Assembly (NCBI RefSeq): GCF_030316895.1
Contig: NZ_JASZYV010000006.1
Coordinates: forward strand, 1 to 64,000
Source of the DNA: Variovorax dokdonensis
Lineage (GTDB): Bacteria; Pseudomonadota; Gammaproteobacteria; Burkholderiales; Burkholderiaceae_C
Reading direction: 5' to 3'
DNA length: 64,000 nucleotides
Shown here: positions 1-12,205 of the stretch, in pieces
How positions within the stretch are numbered: position 1 is the stretch's first letter
How the letters are laid out: every line of letters begins with the position of its first letter
Made by a program: the position numbers and the translations under genes
The notes under the pieces: model-generated
Seen by the model: the letters and a program-made list of their open reading frames with translations, nothing else
The model's database searches: none
Told to the model about the DNA's origin: nothing

Positions 1-156
1 CAACTGCCCGATCGCCACGCCCGCGATCAAGGTCGCGGTGACTGCACCCAGATTGAATCCGAAGAACTTCTTCGGGCCCAGCCAGAAGCCGAAGGCCAAT
101 GCTGCGAAGAGTCCCAGCTCAGGGTATTGCCGCAAGGTTTGAACGAGCCAATCCAT
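1..156 (-). CDS. AspT/YidE/YbjL-type antiporter, N-terminal fragment
   Basis: The frame starts with ATG at 156 and runs off the left edge, leaving 52 residues. It begins MDWLVQTLRQYPELGLF, followed by a hydrophobic segment, a GFWLGPKKFFGF turn and a second hydrophobic segment ending GVAIGQL. This is the typical start of the aspartate:alanine exchanger family (AspT, YidE, YbjL), inner-membrane antiporters with two membrane halves around TrkA-C domains. Only the first two membrane segments are visible, so substrate cannot be judged. An 18-bp inverted repeat shared with three other local promoters lies about 70 bp upstream (227-244). Confidence 0.75.
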   Translation of the reverse strand, partial: MDWLVQTLRQYPELGLFAALAFGFWLGPKKFFGFNLGAVTATLIAGVAIGQL

Positions 157-226
157 GGGTATGTCTCCTTCGCATCTTCGTGTTTGATCGACACGCGGAA
201 CATACGGCTGGCCTTTGGCGGCGCAA

Positions 227-244
227 ATCCTACTTTGGTCGGAT
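227..244 (-). promoter_or_regulatory. 18-bp inverted-repeat element, copy 1
   Basis: Read on the minus strand this is ATCCGACCAAAGTAGGAT: arms ATCC-AC / GT-GGAT around CAAA, with one mismatch in a 7-bp stem. It lies about 70 bp upstream of the antiporter start at 156 and downstream of the DUF2950 gene. The same element recurs at 2847, 2898 and 6821. I infer an operator for a dimeric regulator. Confidence 0.6.
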
Positions 245-285
245 GCGTGGAAGGGGGCGCGCGGCTTGTTGCCGGGCGTGCGCCA

Positions 286-1176
286 TCACTGATCGGGCAC
301 CTGGGCCTTGCGCCAGCCACCGCTCGGATCGAAGCGAGTCATGGCCCGCGCCGCGGCATCCGTGCCGCTGCCCAGGTCCTTCTCGTACACCACGCCGTCC
401 TGGTTGACGATGAAGCTCATCACGCCCGTCTCGCCGTATCGCACCGGCCACGCCACCAGCGCGAAGCCACTGCGCATGCGCGAGCCGATGAGGTAGCTGC
501 GAGCACCGCCATCGGCGCCCGGGCCCTGCGCCTTGAGGATCTTGAACCGGTAGCCGTGATAGCCCGCGCCAGGTTTGTCGGGCGCGAAGGCCGGTCCCAG
601 CGGGCTCAGCGGTTGGCCGGGTTCCTGCGGCCAGTAGAGACCATCGCGCTTGCCCGGCGAACTGGCGAACTTCTGCGCGTACTCGAGCACGCCGTTGCCA
701 TCGTGATCGACACGCGAATACTCGCGCTGCGCATCCACGTAAGCGAGTACGGCCTGCATCGCCGACAGTTCGTTGCGACCGATGCGGCGCGTCTTCATCA
801 TGTCCGCGCCCGCACGCGGATCGAAGCGCCATCCGCCGCCCACCTTCACGATCGGCACCGCCATGGTCCAGTTGCCTTCGCCGGCTGCCAGCAGCATGCG
901 GCCTTCACCGGCGGGGACGACGCCGTGCTTGTGCGACCAGGCCTCCAGAAAAGCGTAGATGTCTTCGCGGTCGATCTCGTCGGCCGGCACGAAGCGCCGC
1001 CAGTCGTTGCCCAGCACGGTGCGCAGCGCGGCTTCGTCGTTGGTGGCAATGGCATTGGCAAAGGCGTCGGCCGCAGCCTGCGGCGTGTCGTAGACGTGCT
1101 GTGCGGCAGCCGGCAGCCAGACCAACGCCATTGCGGCAATGGCTGCCGCTGCCAGTGTGCGCTGCTTGAGTTGCAT
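286..1176 (-). CDS. Exported DUF2950 family protein
   Basis: A 296-residue protein that starts MQLKQRTLAAAAIAAMALVW and has a signal peptide ending near AAAQ, so it is probably periplasmic. I chose the ATG at 1176 because it opens the signal peptide; an in-frame ATG at 1209 would add 11 polar residues. The body fits DUF2950, with GDG/GNGV-type loops, the GLYWP segment and a C-terminal stretch ending in a YGETGVMSF-like region. The family has no established function. It lies 51 bp behind the DUF3300 gene and is probably co-transcribed with it; these two families are commonly neighbours. Confidence 0.85.
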   Translation of the reverse strand: MQLKQRTLAAAAIAAMALVWLPAAAQHVYDTPQAAADAFANAIATNDEAALRTVLGNDWRRFVPADEIDREDIYAFLEAWSHKHGVVPAGEGRMLLAAGEGNWTMAVPIVKVGGGWRFDPRAGADMMKTRRIGRNELSAMQAVLAYVDAQREYSRVDHDGNGVLEYAQKFASSPGKRDGLYWPQEPGQPLSPLGPAFAPDKPGAGYHGYRFKILKAQGPGADGGARSYLIGSRMRSGFALVAWPVRYGETGVMSFIVNQDGVVYEKDLGSGTDAAARAMTRFDPSGGWRKAQVPDQ

Positions 1177-1227
1177 GGTGCTTCGTCCGGTGATGGGGTT
1201 GAGGTTCATGGCGTGCTCGATCGACGT

Positions 1228-2751
1228 TCAGCGGCGCCCGCCGCCACGGCCGCCACCGCCGCCCATGCGCGCACCGCCACCTCCGCCCCCGCTCATGCGG
1301 GCACCGCCGCCGCCACCACCCCCGCTCATGCGCGCCGAGCCTGCGCCCGCCTGCGATCCGCCGAATGACTGGCGGCTGGCCGCGCCGCGGTCCATCTGGC
1401 GCTGCGTGTCCATCCCGCCGCCAGCGCCACGCAAGGCGTTGTCGCTGGCGCGATTGCTGATCTGCGAGGTTTGTCCGCGGTCGATCCCACCACGATCGCC
1501 GCCGCCCAATCCTCCTGCCGCGCCTGCGCGGTCGCCGCCGCCCAATCCACCGGCCCCACCTGCGCGATCGCCGCCGCCCAGGCCGCCGCGATCGGCGGTG
1601 CCTGCACCGGCGCGGTCACGCGCCGTGCCCTCGGCAGCACGCTGTGCGCGATCGCGCGTGGCCGGGTCGTTGCGAAGGCTTTCGCGGCCGGCCCCAGGGT
1701 CCATGCCACGCTGCTGGAGGGCCGACTGGGCCTGCTGCCGCTGGCTGTCGCGCGCACCGTCATGCCCGCGGAAGTCGGCGCGCTGCTCGGCGCCGGCATT
1801 GCCGCGCTCGTACTTCTGGCGACTGGCCTGGTCGCGGTAGGGCACGTCGCGCCGATTGGCGGCGTTGTGCTGCCAGTTGCTCTGGTTGGCGGAGATCTGG
1901 CGGTTGGTGTTGATGCTGTTGTAGCGGTTGACGTTGACGTTCACGTTGCCGCCGCCCCAGTTGCAGTTGCCCCAGAGAGCACCCACCGCGGCCACGCCGA
2001 CGCCGAAGGCGATGCCGGTGGCCAGCGCGGCGCCTGGATACCAGCCCACCGGCGGTGGGTAGTAGTAGGGCGGATAGGCGGGATAGGGCCAGGCGCCGTA
2101 GACCACGGTCGGGTTGTAGGCGGGCACGTAGACGGTCTGTGGCTGCGCCGGCTCGATCTTGATGACGGTCTGCTGCGTCTGCGGCTCCTGCTCCACGATC
2201 ACCTTCTGCTGCTCATTGGACTTGAGGTTGCCGCTGCGCTGGGCCTGCTGGCGCAGGCGCTGCGTGGAATCGAGCACGTCCTTGGACGAGGCCAGGAAGG
2301 CATCGCCCAGGTTCTGCACCCAATCGGGCTGGTCGCCCATGGTCTGGATCACCTGCGGAAACGCGACCAGCGACTGGACGCTCGGGTCCCACGACTGGGT
2401 TTGCACAGCCTTGACGGCAGCGTCACCCTTCTGGTCGGGGTGGGCCTTGGACCACTTGGCCGCATCCGCCACGTCGGCGGGATAGGTGGCCGCCATCAGC
2501 ACCTGCGACAAGAGGGAGTCGGGGTAGAGCGCGATGGGCGCCATCATCTGGTCGATCTGCTCGCGCGAGAACGCGGGTGCAGTCTGGGCCGTGGCCATCG
2601 CGCAGAACACGAGCGCGAAGAAGCCCGCTGCCATGCGTGCCACGGCCAGCCGGGCCGACAAGAGGCTGCAAAGGCGGAAGAGGCCGAAGAGGCCGAAATT
2701 GGGGCCGCGCAGTCGCGCGGTGCGGCAAAGGTTCGTGATCGGCGCGCTCAT
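1228..2751 (-). CDS. DUF3300 family protein with glycine-rich tail
   Basis: A 507-residue protein. The start at 2751 is preceded by GGAGGTG at good spacing. An N-terminal hydrophobic segment (about residues 38-56, ending ATAQ) looks like a signal peptide or anchor; an internal ATG just before it is an alternative start. The DUF3300 domain covers about residues 60-300, with IALYPDSLLSQVLMA and a YVPAYNPTVVYGAWPYP motif, then a Tyr/Pro-rich and a short hydrophobic Gly/Ala segment. The last third is low complexity, with GGLGGGDR and SGGGGG repeats ending in RGGG. Function is unknown. Two copies of the 18-bp element lie 96-165 bp upstream, and DUF2950 follows. Confidence 0.85.
   Translation of the reverse strand: MSAPITNLCRTARLRGPNFGLFGLFRLCSLLSARLAVARMAAGFFALVFCAMATAQTAPAFSREQIDQMMAPIALYPDSLLSQVLMAATYPADVADAAKWSKAHPDQKGDAAVKAVQTQSWDPSVQSLVAFPQVIQTMGDQPDWVQNLGDAFLASSKDVLDSTQRLRQQAQRSGNLKSNEQQKVIVEQEPQTQQTVIKIEPAQPQTVYVPAYNPTVVYGAWPYPAYPPYYYPPPVGWYPGAALATGIAFGVGVAAVGALWGNCNWGGGNVNVNVNRYNSINTNRQISANQSNWQHNAANRRDVPYRDQASRQKYERGNAGAEQRADFRGHDGARDSQRQQAQSALQQRGMDPGAGRESLRNDPATRDRAQRAAEGTARDRAGAGTADRGGLGGGDRAGGAGGLGGGDRAGAAGGLGGGDRGGIDRGQTSQISNRASDNALRGAGGGMDTQRQMDRGAASRQSFGGSQAGAGSARMSGGGGGGGARMSGGGGGGARMGGGGGRGGGRR
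1252..1335. repeat. Coding tandem repeat, poly-glycine tail of DUF3300 protein
   Basis: Near-repeats of a CCGCC/CCACC-rich unit encode SGGGGG-ARM blocks at the C-terminus of the DUF3300 protein. The ARM spacer occurs three times. Such sequence is prone to slippage, so length may vary between strains. Confidence 0.6.
1491..1601. repeat. Coding tandem repeat, GGLGGGDR units
   Basis: Three imperfect copies of a unit encoding GGLGGGDRAG inside the DUF3300 gene. Each copy carries the string CGATCGCCGCCGCCCA or a close variant. It sits in the disordered C-terminal third of the protein. Confidence 0.6.
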
Positions 2752-2846
2752 TCGTTCACCTCCATGCTCGTATGGCCAGGGCCATTGCGCGGGCTCCGCG
2801 GACAGAGCGCGCGCGTCAAGGGTAGGGGCGCGACCGTGCCTCGGCC

Positions 2847-2864
2847 ATCGCACCAAAGTTGGAT
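2847..2864 (+). promoter_or_regulatory. 18-bp inverted-repeat element, copy 2
   Basis: ATCGCACCAAAGTTGGAT, the most diverged copy, in the divergent region between the DUF3300 gene (start 2751) and the RRM-like gene (start 3019). It lies 96 bp from the DUF3300 start. The flank CTCGGCCATC is shared with copy 4. Confidence 0.55.
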
Positions 2865-2897
2865 GGCGCAGCATGCGAAAGCGGGCGGGCCACGGCT

Positions 2898-2915
2898 ATC
2901 CGACCAAAGTAGGGG
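2898..2915 (+). promoter_or_regulatory. 18-bp inverted-repeat element, copy 3
   Basis: ATCCGACCAAAGTAGGGG, 33 bp from copy 2 and about 104 bp upstream of the RRM-like gene. Two sites in one divergent promoter region fit cooperative or bidirectional control. This is inference. Confidence 0.55.
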
Positions 2916-3018
2916 TTTGCTCGCAGCGCGCGCAGCGCTAGCGTTGCATGTCCCATCTGGGCAGGGATGCACCCCGCCCCTGGCCGCAGAGGGCGCCCCT
3001 AGCCTGGAGGAAAAGCGC

Positions 3019-3264
3019 ATGCAGCAGATCCACATCGTCATCGGAAACCTGCCGGACGACGTCACCGAAGAGGGCATCCGCGAGGCGCTCAGCAGCTTCG
3101 CGCAGGCCGACAAGATCCGGCTGGCCAAGGAAAGCGGCACGCCCACGGCCCTGATCGACGTCGATCTGCCGCGTGCGCAGGCGGAGACACTGGCCGGGCG
3201 CATCAACGGCCGTTCCTACCAGGGCCGCGTGCTGCGCGCCTGGGTGCCCAAGATGGATTGGTAG
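3019..3264 (+). CDS. Small RRM-like RNA-binding protein
   Basis: An 81-residue protein starting at ATG 3019 behind GGAGGAAAAGCGC. It opens with IHIVIGNLP, a good RNP2-like first strand, followed by a helix (DVTEEGIREAL) and later strands GTPTALIDVDLP and RVLRAWVP, giving the beta-alpha-beta-beta-alpha-beta order of an RNA recognition motif. The third-strand RNP1 aromatics are weak, so RNA binding is less certain than the fold. The frame overlaps the TTG start of the next gene by 7 bp, implying translational coupling. It sits behind two copies of the 18-bp element. Confidence 0.65.
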   Translation: MQQIHIVIGNLPDDVTEEGIREALSSFAQADKIRLAKESGTPTALIDVDLPRAQAETLAGRINGRSYQGRVLRAWVPKMDW

Positions 3265-4322
3265 CGAGCCGCAAATTGGACTTGACTGGCCTCTTCGAGC
3301 GCGTTGCCGGTGCCTTGTTCGGCAGCGGACGAGCAGCGCCGGACGACGAGCAGGAGCGCCAACTCGTGGGGGACATGATCGAACTGGTGGTCGAGACTGT
3401 CGAGCCGCGCATCCGCTTGCAGGCGCGCTATGCCGACAAGCTCGCGCCGTGCGTGCGCACCACCATCGCCTACCTTCGAGAACTGGGCAGCCGGCCGATG
3501 GCGCCAGTGACGCTCGCGCGCGCCGCCTGGCGCGACGATCCCTGCGTCAACGCGTACTTCGCCGCGGCGGACGACGTGCCCGCCCTACTCGGGCGCACGC
3601 GCGAACTGCGCGACTACTTTTCCGACCCGGGCCATGCGGCCCAGGAGTCCGCCTTTGCACTCCTGGCGATGAAATACGAAGAACGCAAGGTGCTGGCACC
3701 GCGTCAGCGGGGCGACCAGGTGGAACACGACGTGGCGCAGGTCACGGTCAGCTTCTCCGGCCATCGGCTCGTGGCGCCGGCCGACTCGCTGGAGCGCACC
3801 CGGCTGGAGGTCGGCCATCGCCTGATCAAACGGCTGGCGCATGTGGCGCTGTCTCGCATCGTCCAGCAAGACATGAAGGCCAGCGAACTGAACGAGCGCA
3901 AGGCATGGCTGGCGGCCCGCCTGCGCCTGGTGAAGCTGGCTTCCGGAAGCGCGGTGGGCCTGCTCGACGACACGCCCGAAAACCGAACACAGATCGCCGC
4001 GCTGGAACGAGAGTTGAAAGATACAGTGCACGAGTACATCGAGGTCAAGGCGGGCGTCGCCACGCTGGACGCTTTCGTGCGCCAGATCGTGTCGGTGTTT
4101 TCCAATCCGGCGCAGCACGTGGGCCTGCGCCAGACGCCGCAGCACCTGACCCGGCTGGGCGTGCGCGTGGAAGGCGAGTATTCGGGCCCGGTCAACGATT
4201 TCGTGCTGACGGAGTTGGACATGGGCGCTGGCCGCAGCGTTGCCATCGCGATCGCCCATTGCCCGCGCGCCGAAATGCCGCCCGAAGAAGACCTGCTCGC
4301 CAAGGCCGAGCGCTTTCTGTAG
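3258..4322 (+). CDS. Conserved hypothetical protein (354 aa), TTG start
   Basis: I do not recognise this gene. The frame opens with TTG at 3258, inside the end of the RRM-like gene, and gives a soluble, mostly helical protein with no signal peptide or membrane segment. Visible features are an acidic N-terminal region (DDEQERQLVGDMIELVVETVEPR), many Arg/Glu-rich helices and a more beta-like C-terminus (GVRVEGEYSGPVNDFVLTELDMG). It lies between the RRM-like gene and a lone receiver gene 11 bp downstream, so it may belong to the same signalling operon. Coding is supported by length, codon pattern and tight packing; function is unknown. Confidence 0.7.
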   Translation: MVASRKLDLTGLFERVAGALFGSGRAAPDDEQERQLVGDMIELVVETVEPRIRLQARYADKLAPCVRTTIAYLRELGSRPMAPVTLARAAWRDDPCVNAYFAAADDVPALLGRTRELRDYFSDPGHAAQESAFALLAMKYEERKVLAPRQRGDQVEHDVAQVTVSFSGHRLVAPADSLERTRLEVGHRLIKRLAHVALSRIVQQDMKASELNERKAWLAARLRLVKLASGSAVGLLDDTPENRTQIAALERELKDTVHEYIEVKAGVATLDAFVRQIVSVFSNPAQHVGLRQTPQHLTRLGVRVEGEYSGPVNDFVLTELDMGAGRSVAIAIAHCPRAEMPPEEDLLAKAERFL

Positions 4323-4333
4323 CAGGCTTTGAT

Positions 4334-4765
4334 ATGCCCCAACCTGACGGACTTCGCATCGTCTACATCGTGGATGAGGATGTCCCGGTGCGTGAAGCGC
4401 TGGCCCGCCTCATCGACTCGTCAGGGCTCGAAGCGCGTCCTTGCACGTCGCTCGAAGAGTTCCTGCAGCAGGCGCATGGCATACGCGTGGCCTGCGTGCT
4501 GCTCGACGTGACGCGCGCCCACGACAGCGACCTGGCGCTGCGCACGGCGTTGCAGTCAGTAGCCAGCAAGCTGCCGGTGATCGGGCTTTCGTCCAGCGAC
4601 GACCCGGCGGTGCGCCATCTGGCCCGCGATCTGGGCGTGCGTTCGTTCTTCCAGAAGCCGGTGGACGGCGCGGCCTTGCTCGACAGCATCGACTGGCTCA
4701 TGCACGGCGACTGGCGCGGGAAGGGCGGGGCGGCGCCTGGCGCGCCCCCTTTGTCGAGGGCTTGA
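4334..4765 (+). CDS. Stand-alone response-regulator receiver protein
   Basis: A 143-residue single-domain receiver. It has the acidic pocket in YIVDEDVPVREAL, a phospho-acceptor Asp in VACVLLDVTR (residue about 59), the Ser of GLSSSDD in place of the usual Thr/Ser switch, and the conserved Lys in FFQKPVDG. No output domain follows; the last 15 residues are Gly/Pro/Ala rich. It starts 11 bp after the unknown gene and precedes the fused sensor-regulator. It could act as a phosphate sink or shuttle for that protein, which is inference. Confidence 0.85.
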   Translation: MPQPDGLRIVYIVDEDVPVREALARLIDSSGLEARPCTSLEEFLQQAHGIRVACVLLDVTRAHDSDLALRTALQSVASKLPVIGLSSSDDPAVRHLARDLGVRSFFQKPVDGAALLDSIDWLMHGDWRGKGGAAPGAPPLSRA

Positions 4766-4791
4766 CATAGTTAACGTTAAGTGACGATTAT
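4762..4791 (+). promoter_or_regulatory. Candidate sigma-70 promoter with TTAACGTTAA palindrome
   Basis: TTGACA at 4762-4767 is a perfect -35 hexamer, followed after 18 bp by GATTAT (4786-4791, four of six matches). Between them lies the perfect 10-bp palindrome TTAACGTTAA (4771-4780). The AT-rich patch stands out in this GC-rich region. It argues that the kinase gene starts at ATG 4829 rather than at GTG 4781, which would lie inside the promoter. Confidence 0.45.
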
Positions 4792-4828
4792 TCGTGCCAC
4801 TCACGACCCGAAGCGAGGAGGGGTGCGT

Positions 4829-6835
4829 ATGGGCCGCTTGCCGGCTGCCGCTGCAGTGCAACACGCCGCGGCGGGCGATCTGTCTCATTCTTTGCACGAT
4901 CGTGCCGAGTTCGAGAGTCTGTTGATCGGTATTTCCGAGCGCATGGGCGAGATCGTCGACGGCGATTTCCTCGTGGGCGTCGAGGCGTCGTTGAGGCAAC
5001 TCATCGACTACCTGGGCTACGACCGCTGCACCTTCTCCGAATTCATCGCTGGCGACTACTTGAACGTGTTGTGTTCGGTCGGCGCTGGTGACGTGCCGCC
5101 GTTGCCGCGCGGGCGTTTCGACCGGCGGCTGCCGTGGTTCCTGTCGCAGTTGCGCTCGGGCCAGGTGGTCCAGATGGTCCGGCTGCCCGAAGACCTGCCG
5201 CCCGAGGCCGCCGACGAACTGGCGCATGTGATTTCGATGGGCCTCTTGTCCCATCTGTCGATTCCGCTGCACATGGGCGGGCGGGTGACGGCTGTGCTGT
5301 CTTTCGCCGCTTTCCGCCAGCACCGCGAATGGTCGATGACGGTGGCTGCGCGCTTGAAGATGGTGGGGCAGTTCCTGGCAGGCCTGCTGGCGCTGGCGCG
5401 GTCGGGCGAAGAGGTGCGCCACTTGCGCGAGCGCATCTGGCATGCCGATCGGGTGCAGCGCCTGAGCACCCTCAGCGCCGCCATTGCGCACCAGGTCAAC
5501 CAGCCACTGGCGGCCATCCTCAGCAATGCGCAGGCCGGGCTGCGCTACATCGAGCGGGGCAATGCGAGCCCGGTGGTCATGCGCGAAGTGCTCGAAGCGG
5601 TGGAGCGCGAGGAGAAGCGCGCCGCGCAGACCATTCGCGCGATGCGTTCGCTGATGAAACGCGAGGACACCCGCTGCGAGCGTTTCGAACTGGCCGGCGC
5701 ATTGGAAGAGGTGCTGCGCCTCCTGGGCGCCGAACTGCAGTCGCAGGGAATACGGGTGCAGACGCGCTTCGACCGTTCCTGCCAGGTGTCGGGCGACCGG
5801 ACGCAGCTGGAGCAGGTGCTGCTCAACCTGATGTTCAACGCAGCGGCGGCGATGCAGGGCTGCCAGCCGGCAGACCGCTTGATCACGGTGGAGGTGTCGC
5901 GCGGCGCGCCCGGCAAGGTGCTGGTCAAGGTGAGCGACGCCGGCCAGGGCATCGCAGCCCGTGACCTGGAGACCATCTTCGAGCCTTTCTGGACCACGCG
6001 CCAGGAAGGGCTGGGCCTGGGGCTGGCCATCTGCCGCTCCATCGTGGAGACGCACAACGGGCGGATCTGGGGCAAGTCCAGCCTCGGCCATGGCACGACG
6101 TTCCATGTGGAGCTGCCGCTGGCGGACGCCGAGAAGCCGAAGTCTCAGGTGCAGGCACCGATGCCGGCGCGCATCGTCACCGCCCAGCACGAAGCGTCGC
6201 CCACCGAGCCGGCCGCGCCGCTGGTGTGCGTGGTGGACGACGATGGCGGCGTGCGCGAAAGCCTCGTCCGGTTGTTGGACGAGGCCGGCTGGTCCACGAC
6301 GAGCTATGCCTCGGCCGACGAGTTCCTCGCCGAGCCGCCCGAGGGCGATGTGGCTTGTCTGGTGCTCGACATGCGGATGCCGGGTATTTCGGGGCCGCAG
6401 TTGCAACAGCAACTCGTGGAAAACGGGATCTCGGCGCCCGTCATCTTCGTCACCGGGCACGGCGATGTGGCGGCCGGCATCGACGCCATGAAGCTGGGCG
6501 CCGTGGACTTCCTCGAAAAGCCGGTCGATGAGGCGGTCTTGCTGGCCGCGGTGCAGCGAGCGTGCGACAGGCACGCCGCCGTTGCCGCGCAGGCGCAGGT
6601 GCTGGCCGGGGCAAGACAGCGCATGGCGCTGCTTTCGTCGCGCGAGCGCGAGATCGTCGGCCACGTGGTCAGGGGAAGGCTGAACAAGCAGATCGCGGCG
6701 GACCTTGGCATCTCGGAGCAGACCGTCAAGCAGCACCGGGGCCGGGTGATGGAAAAAATGGGCGTGCGGTCTCTGGCCGACCTGGTACGCGCCTGCGAGG
6801 CCGCCGGAGTCGGCTCGGCCATCCCACCAAAGTAG
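4829..6835 (+). CDS. Single-chain sensor kinase-receiver-LuxR HTH protein (FixL/FixJ-like fusion)
   Basis: A 668-residue protein. The ATG at 4829 follows GAGGAGG at good spacing. Residues about 30-190 resemble a GAF sensor domain. A HisKA helix carries the phospho-acceptor in AAIAHQVNQPLAAI (His about 221), followed by HATPase boxes: N box near 332, DAGQGIA near 370 and GLGLGLAICRS near 394. A receiver follows (VVDDDGG near 468, phospho-Asp about 514 in LVLDMRMPG, Lys in LEKPVD), then a LuxR/FixJ helix-turn-helix at about 605-660 (SSREREIVGHVV, NKQIAADLGISEQTVKQH). No membrane segment is seen, so it is cytosolic. Normally this output module is a separate FixJ/StyR-type protein. The kinase could therefore phosphorylate and activate its own DNA-binding end. 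Confidence 0.9.
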   Translation: MGRLPAAAAVQHAAAGDLSHSLHDRAEFESLLIGISERMGEIVDGDFLVGVEASLRQLIDYLGYDRCTFSEFIAGDYLNVLCSVGAGDVPPLPRGRFDRRLPWFLSQLRSGQVVQMVRLPEDLPPEAADELAHVISMGLLSHLSIPLHMGGRVTAVLSFAAFRQHREWSMTVAARLKMVGQFLAGLLALARSGEEVRHLRERIWHADRVQRLSTLSAAIAHQVNQPLAAILSNAQAGLRYIERGNASPVVMREVLEAVEREEKRAAQTIRAMRSLMKREDTRCERFELAGALEEVLRLLGAELQSQGIRVQTRFDRSCQVSGDRTQLEQVLLNLMFNAAAAMQGCQPADRLITVEVSRGAPGKVLVKVSDAGQGIAARDLETIFEPFWTTRQEGLGLGLAICRSIVETHNGRIWGKSSLGHGTTFHVELPLADAEKPKSQVQAPMPARIVTAQHEASPTEPAAPLVCVVDDDGGVRESLVRLLDEAGWSTTSYASADEFLAEPPEGDVACLVLDMRMPGISGPQLQQQLVENGISAPVIFVTGHGDVAAGIDAMKLGAVDFLEKPVDEAVLLAAVQRACDRHAAVAAQAQVLAGARQRMALLSSREREIVGHVVRGRLNKQIAADLGISEQTVKQHRGRVMEKMGVRSLADLVRACEAAGVGSAIPPK

Positions 6836-6838
6836 GAT
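6821..6838 (+). promoter_or_regulatory. 18-bp inverted-repeat element, copy 4
   Basis: ATCCCACCAAAGTAGGAT overlaps the last codons and the TAG stop of the fused kinase gene and lies 62 bp upstream of the PPK2 start. It matches the consensus of copies 1-3. Its position fits an operator for the PPK2 promoter. Confidence 0.6.
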
Positions 6839-6899
6839 GGGCCGCGATGTAGGACTGCGCTACGTTCGAACGATGAAGCAAGCCAAGCGCGAGGACGCA

Positions 6900-7805
6900 A
6901 TGACGCAGAAAACCAGGCCGGGCCAGCAGCACAGCGACGAAATCACAGTTGAAGACGGCGAGGCGGAAGCGCGGCCAGACAAGGGCAAACGGGGTGCAGC
7001 CAAGGCCGAGGCCGACGGCAAGAAGCCCAAACCCCGGCTCGGCCGCAAGGACTACGAGGCGGAGCTGGAGCGCCTGCATGGCGAACTGGTCAAGCTGCAG
7101 CAATGGGTGGTCCACAAGGGTCTGAAGGTGTGCGTGGTGTTCGAGGGGCGCGACGGCGCAGGCAAGGGCGGCACCATCAAGGCGATCACCGAACGGGTCA
7201 GCCCCCGCGTGTTCCGCGTGGTCGCGCTGCCGGCGCCGACCGAGCGCGAGAAGAGCCAGATGTACGTGCAGCGCTACCTGCCGCACCTGCCAGCCGCCGG
7301 CGAGGTCGTGATCTTCGATCGCAGCTGGTACAACCGCGCCGGCGTCGAGCGGGTGATGGGTTTTTGCACTGAGGCGATGGCCAAGGAGTTCCTGCGCGCC
7401 GTGCCGCTGGTCGAGCAGGCCATCATCGACTCGGGTGTCATCCTGCTCAAGTACTGGCTGGAGGTGAGCCCCGAGGAGCAGACCCGCCGGCTCGAATCGC
7501 GAATCGATGATCCGCGCAAGGTCTGGAAGCTCTCGCCGATGGACATCAAGTCGTACACCCGCTGGAACGACTATTCGAAGGCCCGCGACGACATGTTCTC
7601 CGCCACCGACACCGACCTGTCGCCCTGGAACGTGGCGCGCTCGGACGACAAGCGCCGCGCTCGGCTGAACATCATCACGCACCTGCTGGCACACGTGCCC
7701 TACGGCGAGGTCAAGCGCGAAAAGGTCAAGCTGCCAAAGCGCCACAAGCTCGACAGTCACCGCAAGTCGGAACACCCCATCCGCTATGTCGAGGAGCGGT
7801 TCTGA
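6900..7805 (+). CDS. ppk2: Polyphosphate kinase 2 (PPK2)
   Basis: A 301-residue PPK2-family kinase, which transfers phosphate between polyphosphate and nucleotides. The P-loop GRDGAGKGG is at about residues 77-85, with the lid/Walker B region FDRSWYNRAGVERVMGF and the KVWKLSPMD segment typical of the family. The first 55 residues are charged and probably disordered, as in longer class I members. I chose ATG 6900 (GAGGA upstream) over an in-frame ATG at 6873 that lacks a ribosome site. Copy 4 of the 18-bp element lies upstream, linking polyphosphate metabolism to the adjacent sensor-regulator. The direction of the reaction cannot be told from sequence. Confidence 0.92.
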   Translation: MTQKTRPGQQHSDEITVEDGEAEARPDKGKRGAAKAEADGKKPKPRLGRKDYEAELERLHGELVKLQQWVVHKGLKVCVVFEGRDGAGKGGTIKAITERVSPRVFRVVALPAPTEREKSQMYVQRYLPHLPAAGEVVIFDRSWYNRAGVERVMGFCTEAMAKEFLRAVPLVEQAIIDSGVILLKYWLEVSPEEQTRRLESRIDDPRKVWKLSPMDIKSYTRWNDYSKARDDMFSATDTDLSPWNVARSDDKRRARLNIITHLLAHVPYGEVKREKVKLPKRHKLDSHRKSEHPIRYVEERF

Positions 7806-7934
7806 GAGGCCGGGCGTTCTTGGTGGCGGCCGGCCGAAGGCAAACGCGCCAAACGCTCGCCTGCGCGGCCACAGGTGCGGGCTCGAGTTCTGGCGTCGGT
7901 CGATGCCATCGTGTTCAGTTCTTCCCATGAAATC

Positions 7935-8513
7935 ATGACTGACCCTCTCCTTGGATCCGCCATGGGGCGCCGGGCACGCCGTGGCGCCTCGGCCCTGCTC
8001 GCATTGCCAATCTGGCTGGCACCGCTGTCGGCCCATGCGTCATTCCTCCCGCCGGAGATGATGGACACGGCGGCCACGGCGATCGCCTGGTTCGTCGTGG
8101 TCGTGGTGCCCATCGCGGTCATCGTGCTGTTCTGGATGGTGCATGTGCTGCCCGAGAAGATTGCGCACAAGCGCCACCACCCGCAGCGCGACGCGATCAA
8201 GACGCTGTGCCTTCTGTCGCTGGCGTTCGGCGGCCTGCTGTGGCCGCTCGCATGGCTGTGGGCCTACGTGCGGCCGGTGATGCATCAGTCGGCCTACGGC
8301 ACCGAGTTGCACGACGACTATTTCCATGAACAGGGCGTCAAGGCCAGGGCAGGCGAACTGGGCGAGCTCGATCTTCAGCACCTTCGCGAGCAGCTCGACG
8401 CCATGGATGCTCGCGGGGCCCTGTCGGCCGAGCTCAAGCAGCTTCGCAGGGACCTTGCCGAAGTGCGCGCACGACGTGCCGAGGTTGCCAACTCCAACGC
8501 CGCGAGCGCCTGA
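7935..8513 (+). CDS. DUF3302 membrane protein (YiaW-like)
   Basis: A 192-residue protein with a likely signal or first membrane segment (ALLALPIWLAPLSAHA), a second (TAIAWFVVVVVPIAVIVLFW) and a third (TLCLLSLAFGGLLWPLAWLWAYV), then a charged, coiled-coil-like C-terminus (about 130-190). This matches DUF3302/YiaW, which in enterobacteria pairs with the HlyD-type protein YiaV, as here. ATG 7935 is my choice; ATG 7962 is also possible and neither has a strong ribosome site. The TGA overlaps the ATG of the HlyD gene. Confidence 0.8.
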   Translation: MTDPLLGSAMGRRARRGASALLALPIWLAPLSAHASFLPPEMMDTAATAIAWFVVVVVPIAVIVLFWMVHVLPEKIAHKRHHPQRDAIKTLCLLSLAFGGLLWPLAWLWAYVRPVMHQSAYGTELHDDYFHEQGVKARAGELGELDLQHLREQLDAMDARGALSAELKQLRRDLAEVRARRAEVANSNAASA

Positions 8514-9733
8514 TGGACCTGCTGATCCTTGGCATCTATGCCTTCTTCGTCTGGCTGATCTTCATCAAGCTGAAGTGGCTGCCGTGGAACACGGCGTGGC
8601 AGGTCACGGTGGTGATCATCCCGATCGTGGGGCTGTCGATCCTGATCCTGACGCTGAATGTGGTGGCGCCGTCCTCCGCCGACGTGCGGGTGGTCAAGTA
8701 CGTGGTGCAGGTCATACCGCAGGTGCGCGGCCGTGTTCTTGAAGTGCCGGTGGAGCCCAATCGCCTGGTCAAGAAGGGCGAACTGCTGTTCCGCCTCGAT
8801 CCGACCCAGTACGACAACGAAGCCAATGCTGCCAAGGCCAAGCTGGCCGCGGACGAAGCCAGGATGGCTCAGGCCGCCGCGGCGTTGGTGGATGCGTCGG
8901 CCGGTGCGCGGCAGTTGCAGGAACAGCTCAAGTCCGCGACCGGCCAGGTCAGGGCCTTGCAGCCGAAGCTGGAACTCGCGCGCACGCGCGTGCGGCAATA
9001 CAAGGAACTGGTGGCCACCGGCGCCGCCGACCGCTTCGCGCTGGAGCAGGCCGAGTCCACCCTGATCGAGTTGCAGGGCCAGACCGCCACGGCCGTGGCA
9101 AACGAGGCGCAGGTCACGCAGAAGATTTCTGCGCGCGTCAATGGCGAGCAGGCGTCGGTCGCGAATGCGCGAGCCCAATTGGCGATGGCCAAGGCCCAGG
9201 TCGACCTGAGCCGGGCGGAATTGGGCAACGCCATGTGGAACCTCGACCAGACCACTGTCTATGCGCCGGCCGATGGCTACGCCATCAACGTGCAGTTGCG
9301 TCCAGGGTCCTTCGTCGTCGCGGCCCCGATCGTTCCGGCCATGACCTTCGTGGAAGAGACCTACCAGGTGCTGGCGATGTACGACCAGAACGAGTTGCGC
9401 CTTGTGCAGGGCGGCAATCGGGCCGAGTTCATTCTCAAGACCGTTCCCGGCCATGTGTTTTCGGCAAAGGTCGACTCGATCGTCTGGGCACAGGGCCAAG
9501 GCCAGATCGCCCAGTCCGGCCAGTTGCCGCAGACCGTGAACACGGCAATCCCGCCGGGGCGCTTTCCCGTCAAGCTCATCGTCGACGAGAAGGATGCCGG
9601 CATCTTCCTGGCTGCCGGTGCAACGGGTCAGGGCGCCGTCTATACCGACAGCGTGGCAGCGATCCACATCCTGCGCATGGTTCTGCTGCGGGTGAGCACG
9701 ATCATGGACTACCTGGTCCTGAAGCTGCACTGA
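8513..9733 (+). CDS. HlyD/EmrA-type membrane fusion protein (YiaV-like)
   Basis: A 406-residue periplasmic adaptor. Two N-terminal hydrophobic segments lie at about residues 3-20 and 25-50 (VTVVIIPIVGLSILILTLNVV). The lipoyl half-motif VRGRVLEVPVEPNRLVKKGELLFRLDP follows, then a long alpha-helical hairpin rich in Ala/Gln/Lys (about 105-230) and a second lipoyl half (TTVYAPADGYAINV). It bridges an inner-membrane transporter to an outer-membrane channel. The gene overlaps both neighbours by ATGA-type junctions, so the three are an operon. No inner-membrane pump such as FUSC or MFS is encoded next to it. Confidence 0.9.
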   Translation: MDLLILGIYAFFVWLIFIKLKWLPWNTAWQVTVVIIPIVGLSILILTLNVVAPSSADVRVVKYVVQVIPQVRGRVLEVPVEPNRLVKKGELLFRLDPTQYDNEANAAKAKLAADEARMAQAAAALVDASAGARQLQEQLKSATGQVRALQPKLELARTRVRQYKELVATGAADRFALEQAESTLIELQGQTATAVANEAQVTQKISARVNGEQASVANARAQLAMAKAQVDLSRAELGNAMWNLDQTTVYAPADGYAINVQLRPGSFVVAAPIVPAMTFVEETYQVLAMYDQNELRLVQGGNRAEFILKTVPGHVFSAKVDSIVWAQGQGQIAQSGQLPQTVNTAIPPGRFPVKLIVDEKDAGIFLAAGATGQGAVYTDSVAAIHILRMVLLRVSTIMDYLVLKLH

Positions 9734-11148
9734 TGAAGGCGATTGCGACGCTTCGTCGATCCGGGGCCTTGCTGATCGCATCGGCCTTGTGCGGCTGCGC
9801 GCTGTCACCGCCGCCGACGGCGCAGGACCTGCAAAAGGAAGTCCTGCCGCAGGCGCAGTTGCCTTCGACTTTCAAGGGCGCGGCCAGCACCGATCCGGTA
9901 CCCGATCGCTGGCTGGCCAGTTTCGGAGATCCGGCGCTCGATTCACTCGTCGTCCAGGCCATGGCCTACAACGCCGATCTGCGCATCGCCGCGGCGCGGG
10001 TGGAGCAGGCGGCAGGCTATGTGAAGGTAGCGTCGGGTGCGCTCTTGCCTTCGGTGGGCGTGGTCGGCCTGGGTGGTGGCAAGTCCGGCGGAGGTGGCGG
10101 CTTGGACGGGGTCTTCCTGAACGCATCGCTCGAACTGGACGTGTGGGGCCGTCTGCGCTATGGCCAGGCCGCGAGCGAGGCGCAATTGGAGGCTGCACAA
10201 GCCGACTACGCCTACGCACGTCAGTCGCTGGCCGCGATGGTGGCCAAGGCCTGGTTCCTGGCGGTGGAGGCGGGGCTTCAGCGCGGCATCGCCAGGGAGG
10301 CGCTGCAGGCCGCCCAGACGCTGGCGCAAGTGGCCGACGATCGTTTGCGTGTGGGCAGCGGCAGTGGCGTTGCTGCGGCGCAGGCGAGAGCCAACGTGGG
10401 CAGCTACCGAGACACCTTGCGGCAGGTGGAGTTCTCGCGCGAGCAGGCGATGCGCGCGCTGGAGCTGCTTGTGGGGCGCTATCCGGCAGCGGAGATTGCG
10501 GTGGCCGACACGCTTTCGTCGATGCCGCCGCCCTTGCCGGTGGGCGTGCCTTCCAGTCTGCTCGAGCGCCGGCCGGACGTGGTGGCGGCGGAGCGGCGGG
10601 TGGCGGTCGCCTTCGACCGTGTCGGCGAGGCCAAGGCGGCGCAACTGCCGCGCATCAGTCTCACCGCCGGGGGCAGCAATGTGTCGAGCGACCTGATCGT
10701 GCTCAAGGATGTGAGCAACCCGGTGTGGAGTCTCGGCGCCAACCTGATCGCTCCGATCTACCAGGGTGGCGCGCTGCGGGCGCAGGTGGAAATCCGTACC
10801 GCCGAGCAGAAGCAGGCCGTGGCCGAATATGCGAGGGCAGGGCAGAAGGCTTTCAGCGAGGTCGAGAACGCACTTGGCGCCGAGGCGGCCCTGCGCGAAC
10901 GCAGCGCCATCCTCACCGAGAACGTGCGCGACAACGAGGAGGCCCTGAGGCTGGCCCAGGTGCAGTATCGGGTGGGCGCCGGAGACATGAACACCGTGTC
11001 CCAAAGCCAGTTGCTCCTTTACGTGGCACGAACGGCGCGGCTGCGCGTGCAGTCCGAGCAACTGGCGCAACGCGCCAACCTCTACCTCGCTCTTGGCGGC
11101 GGGTATGACGAGCAGCCGTCGTTGCACACTGGGCTGACTGAGCGATGA
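9733..11148 (+). CDS. NodT-family outer-membrane efflux lipoprotein
   Basis: A 471-residue TolC-like channel protein. A signal peptide ends in the lipobox LCGC (Cys about residue 19), so it is lipid-anchored to the outer membrane. Two OEP repeats follow; recognisable are the DPALDSLVVQAMAYNADLRIAAARVEQA and SSLLERRPDVVAAERRV segments and the repeat starting NPVWSLGANLIAPIYQGG. The ATG at 9733 overlaps the stop of the HlyD gene. It would form the outer-membrane exit for the DUF3302-HlyD export complex. Confidence 0.92.
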   Translation: MKAIATLRRSGALLIASALCGCALSPPPTAQDLQKEVLPQAQLPSTFKGAASTDPVPDRWLASFGDPALDSLVVQAMAYNADLRIAAARVEQAAGYVKVASGALLPSVGVVGLGGGKSGGGGGLDGVFLNASLELDVWGRLRYGQAASEAQLEAAQADYAYARQSLAAMVAKAWFLAVEAGLQRGIAREALQAAQTLAQVADDRLRVGSGSGVAAAQARANVGSYRDTLRQVEFSREQAMRALELLVGRYPAAEIAVADTLSSMPPPLPVGVPSSLLERRPDVVAAERRVAVAFDRVGEAKAAQLPRISLTAGGSNVSSDLIVLKDVSNPVWSLGANLIAPIYQGGALRAQVEIRTAEQKQAVAEYARAGQKAFSEVENALGAEAALRERSAILTENVRDNEEALRLAQVQYRVGAGDMNTVSQSQLLLYVARTARLRVQSEQLAQRANLYLALGGGYDEQPSLHTGLTER

Positions 11149-11230
11149 AGCGCCCACTGCGACAGCGACTCACAGTCCTGTTAGCAGATCTCGGAACCTG
11201 CTGCGCCTCGTAGACGAGCCAGTCTTTGGC

Positions 11231-12205
11231 TCAATCGAGCTGCGCGCCCGAAACCTTCACCAGTTTCTCCCACACCGGCAGCGCCGACTCGAAGTCAGCC
11301 TGGAACTCCGCCGCGGTCGAGCCGAGCGGCAGCAGTCCGAGCGCCTGGAACCGTGCGCGTAGCGCGGTCGAGTTGATGGCTTCGCGCGCCTCCTTCTCCA
11401 GGCGCGCCACCACGGGCGCTGGTGTGCTCTTGGGCACCAGCATGCCCATCCAGCCGAGCAACTGGAAGGCGGGGTCCTTGTCGCCGGATTCGGCAAAGGT
11501 TGGCACTTGCGGCAATACCGATGAGCGCGAGTGGCCCGTGACTGCCAGCGGCCGCACGCGGCCATCGTCGATGAAGGGCTTGAGTGTGAGCGGCGAACCG
11601 ATCACGAAGCTGATTTGTCCGCCCACCAGGTCCTGTGTCATCGGCGCTTCGCCCTTGTAGGCGACATGGGTCATGTCGAGCTCGCCACGACTGCTGAGCA
11701 AGGAGCCGGCCAGATGGGGAAAGGAGCCCGGCCCCCAGGAGCCGTAGTTCACCTTGCCTTTGTTCTTCGCGGCCCAGGCCTGCAGCTGACCGAGGTCCCG
11801 CGCAGGGACGTTGGATGCGTTCACCGCCAGTACCAGTGGCGCCGTGGCGATTTCAGTGACGAAGGCCAGGTCGCGCCGCGTGTCGTAGGGCAGTTTCTTG
11901 AACAGGAACTGGTTGGTGAGGGCCGATTGCACCAGAGAGATCAGCACGGTATGCCCGTCGGCCGGCGCTTTCACCACGGTCATGGTGCCAAGGATGCCGG
12001 CAGCGCCCGGCTTGTTGTCTACCAGGATGGTCTGACCCATGCGTCGGCCCATCTCGTCGGCCAGCGCTCGAGCCACCACGTCGGTACCACCGCCGGCCGG
12101 ATAGGGCACGACAAAGGTGATGGGCTTGCTCGGAAAGGTGTCCTGCGCCACTGCGCTGGCACCGACAGCCAGGACGCACAGGGCGACTGCGATTCGCTTC
12201 ATCAT
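11231..12205 (-). CDS. Bug-family (TctC) tripartite tricarboxylate receptor
   Basis: A 324-residue exported solute-binding protein with a signal peptide cleaved near ASAVAQ, then FPSKPITFVVPYPAGGGTDVVAR, the ligand-binding loop of this family. The motifs DNKPGAAG, PADGHTVL and YKGEAP are as expected. AGGAGACAAC precedes ATG 12205. It is divergent from the DUF1254/DUF1214 gene at 12408 with a palindromic operator between them, so it probably binds the substrate of that island. No TctA/TctB membrane genes accompany it; such orphan receptors are common in Burkholderiales. Confidence 0.92.
   Translation of the reverse strand: MMKRIAVALCVLAVGASAVAQDTFPSKPITFVVPYPAGGGTDVVARALADEMGRRMGQTILVDNKPGAAGILGTMTVVKAPADGHTVLISLVQSALTNQFLFKKLPYDTRRDLAFVTEIATAPLVLAVNASNVPARDLGQLQAWAAKNKGKVNYGSWGPGSFPHLAGSLLSSRGELDMTHVAYKGEAPMTQDLVGGQISFVIGSPLTLKPFIDDGRVRPLAVTGHSRSSVLPQVPTFAESGDKDPAFQLLGWMGMLVPKSTPAPVVARLEKEAREAINSTALRARFQALGLLPLGSTAAEFQADFESALPVWEKLVKVSGAQLD

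Follow-up and report, generated by a model that had tools for sequence, protein, structure and literature searches.

Is the 18-bp inverted repeat that surrounds a sensor-regulator gene in Variovorax dokdonensis the operator of that regulator, and if so, which genes would it control? The stretch analyzed here (the window) comprises 64,000 nucleotides of contig NZ_JASZYV010000006.1 (assembly GCF_030316895.1, positions 1 to 64,000 of the forward strand; contig C6 below). An original prediction, made from these letters, had proposed that the repeat, which we call the box, is a site for a LuxR-type dimer, that the fused kinase-regulator encoded at 4829-6835, which we call HKRR, is the protein concerned, and that the two form a local stress regulon. 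We postulate that the box is a candidate operator of HKRR, which would activate the operon that encodes it together with a small regulon for energy stress, and we put the probability of this reading at roughly 0.78. HKRR is favored as the reader of the box by the rarity of the box, its co-occurrence with HKRR, its spacing to a downstream hexamer, and its recurrence before orthologous genes. The boxes and their rarity, co-occurrence with HKRR, recurrence, and constant distance from a -10-like hexamer were all computed from genome sequences.

The candidate operator is the palindrome ATCC-N-AC-CAAA-GT-N-GGAT, in which two 7-bp half-sites flank CAAA, as the original prediction described. Exact copies lie at 227-244 (minus strand) and 6821-6838 (plus strand), and copies with 2 mismatches lie at 2847-2864 (plus strand as a pattern match, ATCGCACCAAAGTTGGAT) and 2898-2915 (plus strand, ATCCGACCAAAGTAGGGG). 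A scan of the window confirmed these four copies, starting at 227, 2847, 2898, and 6821, and found no other at up to 3 mismatches; the earlier observation that the rest of the window is free of copies therefore holds to that threshold. In 100 dinucleotide shuffles of the window, the mean number of matches was 0.01 and the maximum was 1. The 11-bp core alone, at up to 2 mismatches, occurred 29 times, versus 28.9 expected by chance, and thus the signal is carried by the whole palindrome. Of the 33 sites compiled below, 23 have arms that pair at 6 or 7 of the 7 positions (7 of 7 in two of them). We also checked for an RNA element and found no Rfam family above its gathering score in window positions 1 to 12000.

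The whole genome (4,969,407 bases in 9 contigs; G000 below) yielded 9 matches at up to 3 mismatches, versus 2 for a reversed control pattern. Eight of these have 0 to 2 mismatches, and the ninth, with 3, is at background level. With eight copies in 4.97 Mb, the box is no common repeat; the hundreds of scattered copies for which the genome was scanned did not appear, and the predicted regulon stands. At up to 1 mismatch, the box occurred in 1 of 399 family genomes, namely, G000, and in 2 of 369 class genomes, G000 and G606. Matches with 3 mismatches were considered as possible members and set aside. Across the nine genomes described next, they numbered 8, the reversed control yielding 11 at equal stringency, and the spaced hexamer was absent in six of the eight, those whose flanks were read.

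The distribution of the box follows that of HKRR. Our first set contained 61 genomes (G000, 36 from the genus, and 24 from the order), and the box at up to 1 mismatch occurred in G000, G002, G023, G024, and G027. The latter four encode full-length HKRR orthologs with 57 to 60% identity; the best match outside these genomes has 35%. We then considered 101 Variovorax genomes, G000 included, in which an HKRR profile (E up to 1e-130) found 8 carriers. The box at up to 1 mismatch was present in 9 of the 101, comprising all 8 carriers and G510, with at most eight copies in any genome. In G510, the box lies 92 bp ahead of a receiver open reading frame (ORF) that is 56% identical to that of the HKRR operon, and the next ORF matches HKRR over 29 residues (59%); the locus reads as a decayed remnant of the regulator locus. 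Fisher's exact test on these counts (box in 8 of 8 carriers versus 1 of 93 other genomes) gives P = 4.5e-11 when relatedness is ignored. A nonexhaustive scan of named genomes with two short peptide patterns returned at least 9 loci, 8 of them from six Variovorax genomes and one a partial cyanobacterial match. The tie between the box and the fused kinase-regulator, originally positional, is now also comparative, through co-occurrence in the genus.

HKRR (4829..6835, plus strand) has the domain order GAF, HisKA, HATPase_c, receiver, and GerE, the last being a LuxR-type helix-turn-helix (HTH), and is our proposed sensor and DNA-binding activator. Pfam places Response_reg at residues 466-576 (1.9e-24) and GerE at 601-654 (2.1e-18), which is the layout of NarL/FixJ-type regulators. 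An alignment of 7 sequences shows no variation in the H-box histidine, in the aspartates and lysine of the receiver, or across much of the HTH. The best PDB match of the receiver-HTH portion is 1yio (1.4e-45), which we take to be StyR, and the second is FixJ (5xso, 3.9e-40), so the nearby LuxR-type protein of the original prediction can now be assigned to the FixJ/StyR type by structure matches. The best PDB matches also include FixL-type kinase cores. The NCBIfam FixJ equivalog model (NF006900) aligns over the whole receiver-HTH portion with 197.7 bits, below its cutoff of 255, and thus HKRR is FixJ-like but not FixJ. The Pfam scan of HKRR found a GAF domain and no PAS domain, and the GAF domain had no confident relative among solved structures.

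Each of the four boxes in the window lies ahead of a gene, as had been described, at distances of 71, 95, 103, and 61 bp when gene starts are read from the sequence. The box at 227-244 is 71 bp from the start, at 155, of an AspT-type aspartate-alanine antiporter gene (1..155, minus strand), of which the contig end leaves only the beginning; the hexamer TATGTT (204-199, minus strand) lies 22 bp downstream of the box. The box at 2847-2864 would act on the minus strand, where the hexamer TACCCT (2824-2819) is followed by genes for a DUF3300 protein (1228..2751, PF11737, start at 2751, 95 bp from the box) and a DUF2950 protein (286..1209, PF11453). The box at 2898-2915 precedes the regulator operon on the plus strand, with the hexamer TAGCGT (2939-2944) 23 bp after it. 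The operon begins, 103 bp from the box, with a small RRM protein (RRM_1, 3019..3264) and continues with UNK354 (3258..4322), a protein of 354 amino acids (aa) with no Pfam or NCBIfam match at E 0.001, a single receiver domain (Response_reg by Pfam, 4334..4765), and HKRR. The box at 6821-6838 is followed by the hexamer TACGTT (6861-6866) and by the gene for PPK2 polyphosphate kinase (6900..7805, plus strand), which scores above the cutoff of the TIGR03707 equivalog. The hexamer and our reading of the sequence make 6900 the most likely PPK2 start, 61 bp from the box; a longer ORF from 6837 would start within the box, and that call is too early. The HKRR stop codon TAG (6833-6835) falls inside this box, where coding end and candidate operator overlap.

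The spacing between box and hexamer is nearly constant. From G510 and the 8 carriers, we collected all 33 boxes with 0 to 2 mismatches, used locus maps to match each with the gene ahead of it, and read the DNA toward that gene; where PPK2 and a SulP-like gene diverge, the box was assigned to PPK2. The 2-mismatch matches in carrier-free genomes (7 from the genus and 1 from the order) and all eight 3-mismatch matches were left out. Nine of these 16 matches were read as background (6 of the 8 with 3 mismatches and 3 of the 8 with 2 mismatches outside carriers). A TAnnnT hexamer starts at +22 after the box at 27 sites, at +23 at 3, and at +21 at 1, or 31 of 33 in total; by target family, it is found at +22 or +23 in 9 of 11. 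It occurred in 0 of 594 tests at offsets 25 to 60 in the same promoters, in 0 of 33 in the opposite direction from the box, and in 0 of 9 background matches; counting the class-level match in G606, described below, makes the last figure 1 of 10. When the first base of the hexamer is set at -12, the box falls at about -52 to -35, which would be the position of a class II activator.

The same geometry bears on whether HKRR would instead repress from the box. With the box adjoining the -35 region, RNA polymerase could be blocked, and AccR, another two-component regulator, is described as a repressor (PMC6456745). However, a repressor needs no exact spacing to the -10 element, and the box, held in nearly one phase (21 to 23 bp), occupies the position reported for the activating STY2 site of StyR. 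The consensus of the boxed promoters also lacks a clear TTGACA-like -35 hexamer, showing only a TTTGCG-like stretch. We infer that HKRR binds the box and activates rather than represses, and we regard repression as quite improbable.

The box recurs before orthologous genes in the other carriers, another check that the original prediction had raised. The RRM-UNK354 operon is boxed in all 8 carriers; HKRR lies within this gene string in 7 of them, whereas in G473 it stands apart and has its own box. PPK2 is boxed in 7 of 8 (the exception is G027, where PPK2 itself was not searched for). The DUF3300-DUF2950 pair is boxed in 6 of 8, with a 129-aa ORF intervening in G027, and carrier genomes also have several DUF3300 paralogs that are unboxed. 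In two genomes, G023 and G024, the boxed PPK2 is followed about 5 kb further downstream by the pair in the same orientation; in G023, a small opposite ORF was called between them, and read-through is uncertain. Rarer targets are AspT (twice in G000 and once in G473), a BamA-like gene (G027), a DUF4239/bestrophin-like gene (G002 and G471, whose ORFs begin about 430 and 250 bp after the box, respectively), a porin (G466), and a SulP transporter and a solute-binding protein (both in G000). The box is kept although the flanking DNA has largely diverged: when the other seven RRM-operon promoters are compared with that of the window, identity is 20 to 53% in the 40 bp before the box, 83 to 89% in the box, 45 to 50% in the 20 bp after it, and 13 to 37% further down (bases 31 to 60).

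In G000 itself, four of the eight boxes cluster around the sensor-regulator, as predicted, but the other four are on other contigs, and the regulon is therefore not local. Contig C4 has two of the latter, one before a second AspT gene and one before decayed RRM-UNK354-receiver genes that lead to a second HKRR (79% identical, L011:14999-17784), where box and hexamer are kept. The third, on C1, precedes a SulP-family transporter. The fourth, on C8, precedes a family-3 solute-binding protein gene that has an Orn/Lys/Arg decarboxylase gene behind it and lies downstream of an aspartate 4-decarboxylase gene.

To what condition might this regulon respond? A pyruvate formate-lyase (PFL) gene lies directly behind HKRR in G002, G023, G024, G466, and G471, followed in four of these five by a 285-aa activase-like ORF; the PFL-activase pair of G002, the only one tested, scores above the NCBIfam cutoffs. 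Among the 101 genus genomes, PFL is found in six (G002, G023, G024, G027, G466, and G471), all HKRR carriers, and that of G027 is on another contig. Genes for acetate kinase, DUF3141, and Usp-like proteins (the latter by reading only) occur near the HKRR locus in several carriers. G000 and G473 have boxed AspT genes with decarboxylases nearby. Three features, namely, PFL following HKRR in other carriers, PPK2, and the pairing of AspT with aspartate decarboxylase, lead us to infer a low-oxygen or low-energy signal. The predicted stress circuit would fit this gene content, as energy or low-oxygen stress, and is a label drawn from that content.

Several observations weigh against our reading. The carriers are related, so their counts are not independent, and a single 2-mismatch copy is present in each of seven genus genomes outside the carriers (those of G014 and G029 were inspected). 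The hexamer is absent at 2 of the 33 boxes (SulP in G000 and the box before HKRR in G473), and the 1-mismatch match in the class-level genome G606 also has TAnnnT at +23, so the specificity of the hexamer is incomplete. G000, G473, and G510 lack PFL, and the low-oxygen interpretation thus rests on relatives. Another coinherited DNA-binding protein might be the reader, and UNK354 is of no known family. Finally, the DUF3300, BamA-like, and DUF4239 promoters look like copies of each other, and in other carriers, the promoters of the RRM operon and of PPK2 have up to 67 bp in common, including about 30 bp upstream of the box.

These promoter pairs, alike beyond the box, indicate that some arose by copying, and they would suit the idea that the box is a short dispersed repeat or part of a duplicated promoter cassette with no common regulator. 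The reverse-orientation promoters (DUF3300, BamA-like, and DUF4239) are 74 to 91% identical across 39 to 90 bp. Against this, genomes have 8 copies or fewer, all 33 boxes can be assigned to a gene ahead, 31 of them with the spaced hexamer, and pairs that involve AspT, solute-binding protein, porin, receiver, or HKRR boxes mostly share just 19 to 30 bp, that is, the box and the TTTGCG-like stretch after it. We reject the dispersed repeat as very improbable because of box rarity, gene assignment, and the spaced hexamers, and we admit some promoter copying, by which part of the regulon seems to have grown.

The phyletic match of box and HKRR amounts to linkage, not contact, and a different transcription factor, inherited with the same loci, might bind the box and have HKRR only as a target. 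The HKRR operon is itself boxed, as a target would be. Yet HKRR is the sole protein of the operon with a DNA-binding domain by Pfam, the box stands beside both HKRR copies in G000 (C6 and C4), and in G473, where the HKRR gene and the RRM operon are separated, each has its own box ahead of it. StyR, a regulator with a similar receiver-HTH, acts from about -40. We consider a separate reader unlikely and HKRR the probable one.

Several features of these loci are recorded for their own interest. UNK354 represents a conserved family and follows the small RRM gene in every intact locus seen (the 8 carriers and G157), and among the 399 family genomes, it was found in G000 and in G157, from one other genus. 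In the 19.9-kb G157 locus, RRM adjoins UNK354, no HKRR ortholog was found (the search gave just a receiver protein with 27% identity to the HKRR receiver), and there is no box at up to 4 mismatches. A structure prediction for UNK354 had a mean pLDDT (predicted local distance difference test) of 43.5, and the model was not used. Downstream of PPK2, a DUF3302 gene (7920..8513, plus strand), with homologs also downstream of PPK2 in G023 and G473, is a candidate member of the PPK2 transcript. Window positions 1-245 are 98% identical to C4 (L011:17968-18212), whose full-length copy passes the AspT equivalog cutoff, and contigs C6, C4, and C8 terminate in AspT or aspartate decarboxylase genes; together, these suggest a duplicated unit that collapsed in assembly. 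Similar promoters and leaders of DUF3300, DUF4239, and BamA-like genes are located at L060:8063, L059:8391, L064:16979, L077:6212, L080:4825, L082:6056, L083:11826, and window position 2847. A STAND-type LuxR regulator (AAA/NACHT plus GerE, L108:7941-10715) is encoded directly behind DUF2950 in G024, and G023 has an ORF of similar size there. The G606 match (L115:1501-1518), in an AT-richer, unrelated genome, is an unexplained lead; a GerE-type protein is encoded about 300 bp beyond, on the hexamer side.

We propose that HKRR would autophosphorylate and pass the phosphate to its own receiver domain, dimerize via its LuxR-type HTH on the two 7-bp half-sites, and, bound at about -52 to -35 (centered near -43.5), bring RNA polymerase to promoters that have TAnnnT as their -10 element and a -35 element that is poor at best. 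HKRR would thereby turn on its own operon (RRM, UNK354, receiver, and HKRR) and, in this genome, PPK2, DUF3300-DUF2950, the two AspT copies, and the solute-binding protein with the downstream Orn/Lys/Arg decarboxylase; the SulP transporter is perhaps also a target. Most likely, this is a regulon of small size and narrow distribution whose activator box is well defined and is probably read by the fused kinase-regulator. It would provide an operator, a regulator, and promoter positions for the obscurely regulated DUF3300, DUF2950, UNK354, and RRM proteins and PPK2 and would join these families in one physiological response. If true, HKRR would be a hybrid kinase that itself serves as the transcription factor and has a defined operator. 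The confinement of PFL to regulator carriers among the 101 genus genomes suggests a transferable low-oxygen energy package.

An activator of the FixJ/NarL type with a box near -40 is of a known kind. No precedent for such a fused regulator together with this box and these targets was found in the open-license papers searched, and among the matches listed, papers containing 11-mers of the box included none on such a regulon, judged by title and the start of the abstract. FixL/FixJ resembles HKRR in that the FixJ model covers the whole receiver-HTH and FixL-type kinase cores are among the best PDB matches. FixL senses through a haem-PAS domain, whereas HKRR has a GAF domain without PAS, falls below the FixJ cutoff, and is a single fused chain. 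The StyS/StyR and TodS/TodT systems of Pseudomonas are likewise similar, since the HKRR receiver-HTH is closest to PDB 1yio. The high-affinity site from which phosphorylated StyR activates lies at about -40 relative to the start (PMC2442086). These systems differ from HKRR in having separate kinase and regulator, an aromatic-degradation promoter, and involvement of IHF; HKRR is fused in one protein, and its targets (PPK2, AspT, DUF3300/DUF2950, and similar genes) are of another sort.

A hypoxia-induced gene island in a relative, the lxa locus of Burkholderia cenocepacia, is described in PMC6127331 and PMC9733578. It resembles the HKRR loci by gene families (acetate kinase, DUF3141, and Usp-like genes in some carriers); the main text of those papers does not use the words motif and promoter and so offers no operator to compare. 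In actinobacteria, DevR/DosR and OsdR control genes around the regulator and stress genes in hypoxia through a palindromic box (PMC5069765) and thus share with the HKRR regulon a response regulator, a palindromic box, and neighboring and stress genes. By the same source, they have separate kinases and control about 50 genes in Mycobacterium tuberculosis, and their box, given for Streptomyces as AGGGCCGATCGGCCCT, differs from the HKRR box; they also belong to another phylum. We tentatively speculate, as a possibility somewhat short of even odds, that HKRR is a single-protein counterpart of the FixLJ and DosR hypoxia switches: one fused kinase-regulator would command an anoxia-survival regulon of PPK2, an aspartate decarboxylation cycle, PFL, anion transporters, and exported DUF3300/DUF2950 proteins, found in a few members of a genus that otherwise lacks PFL and grown partly by copying of promoter cassettes.

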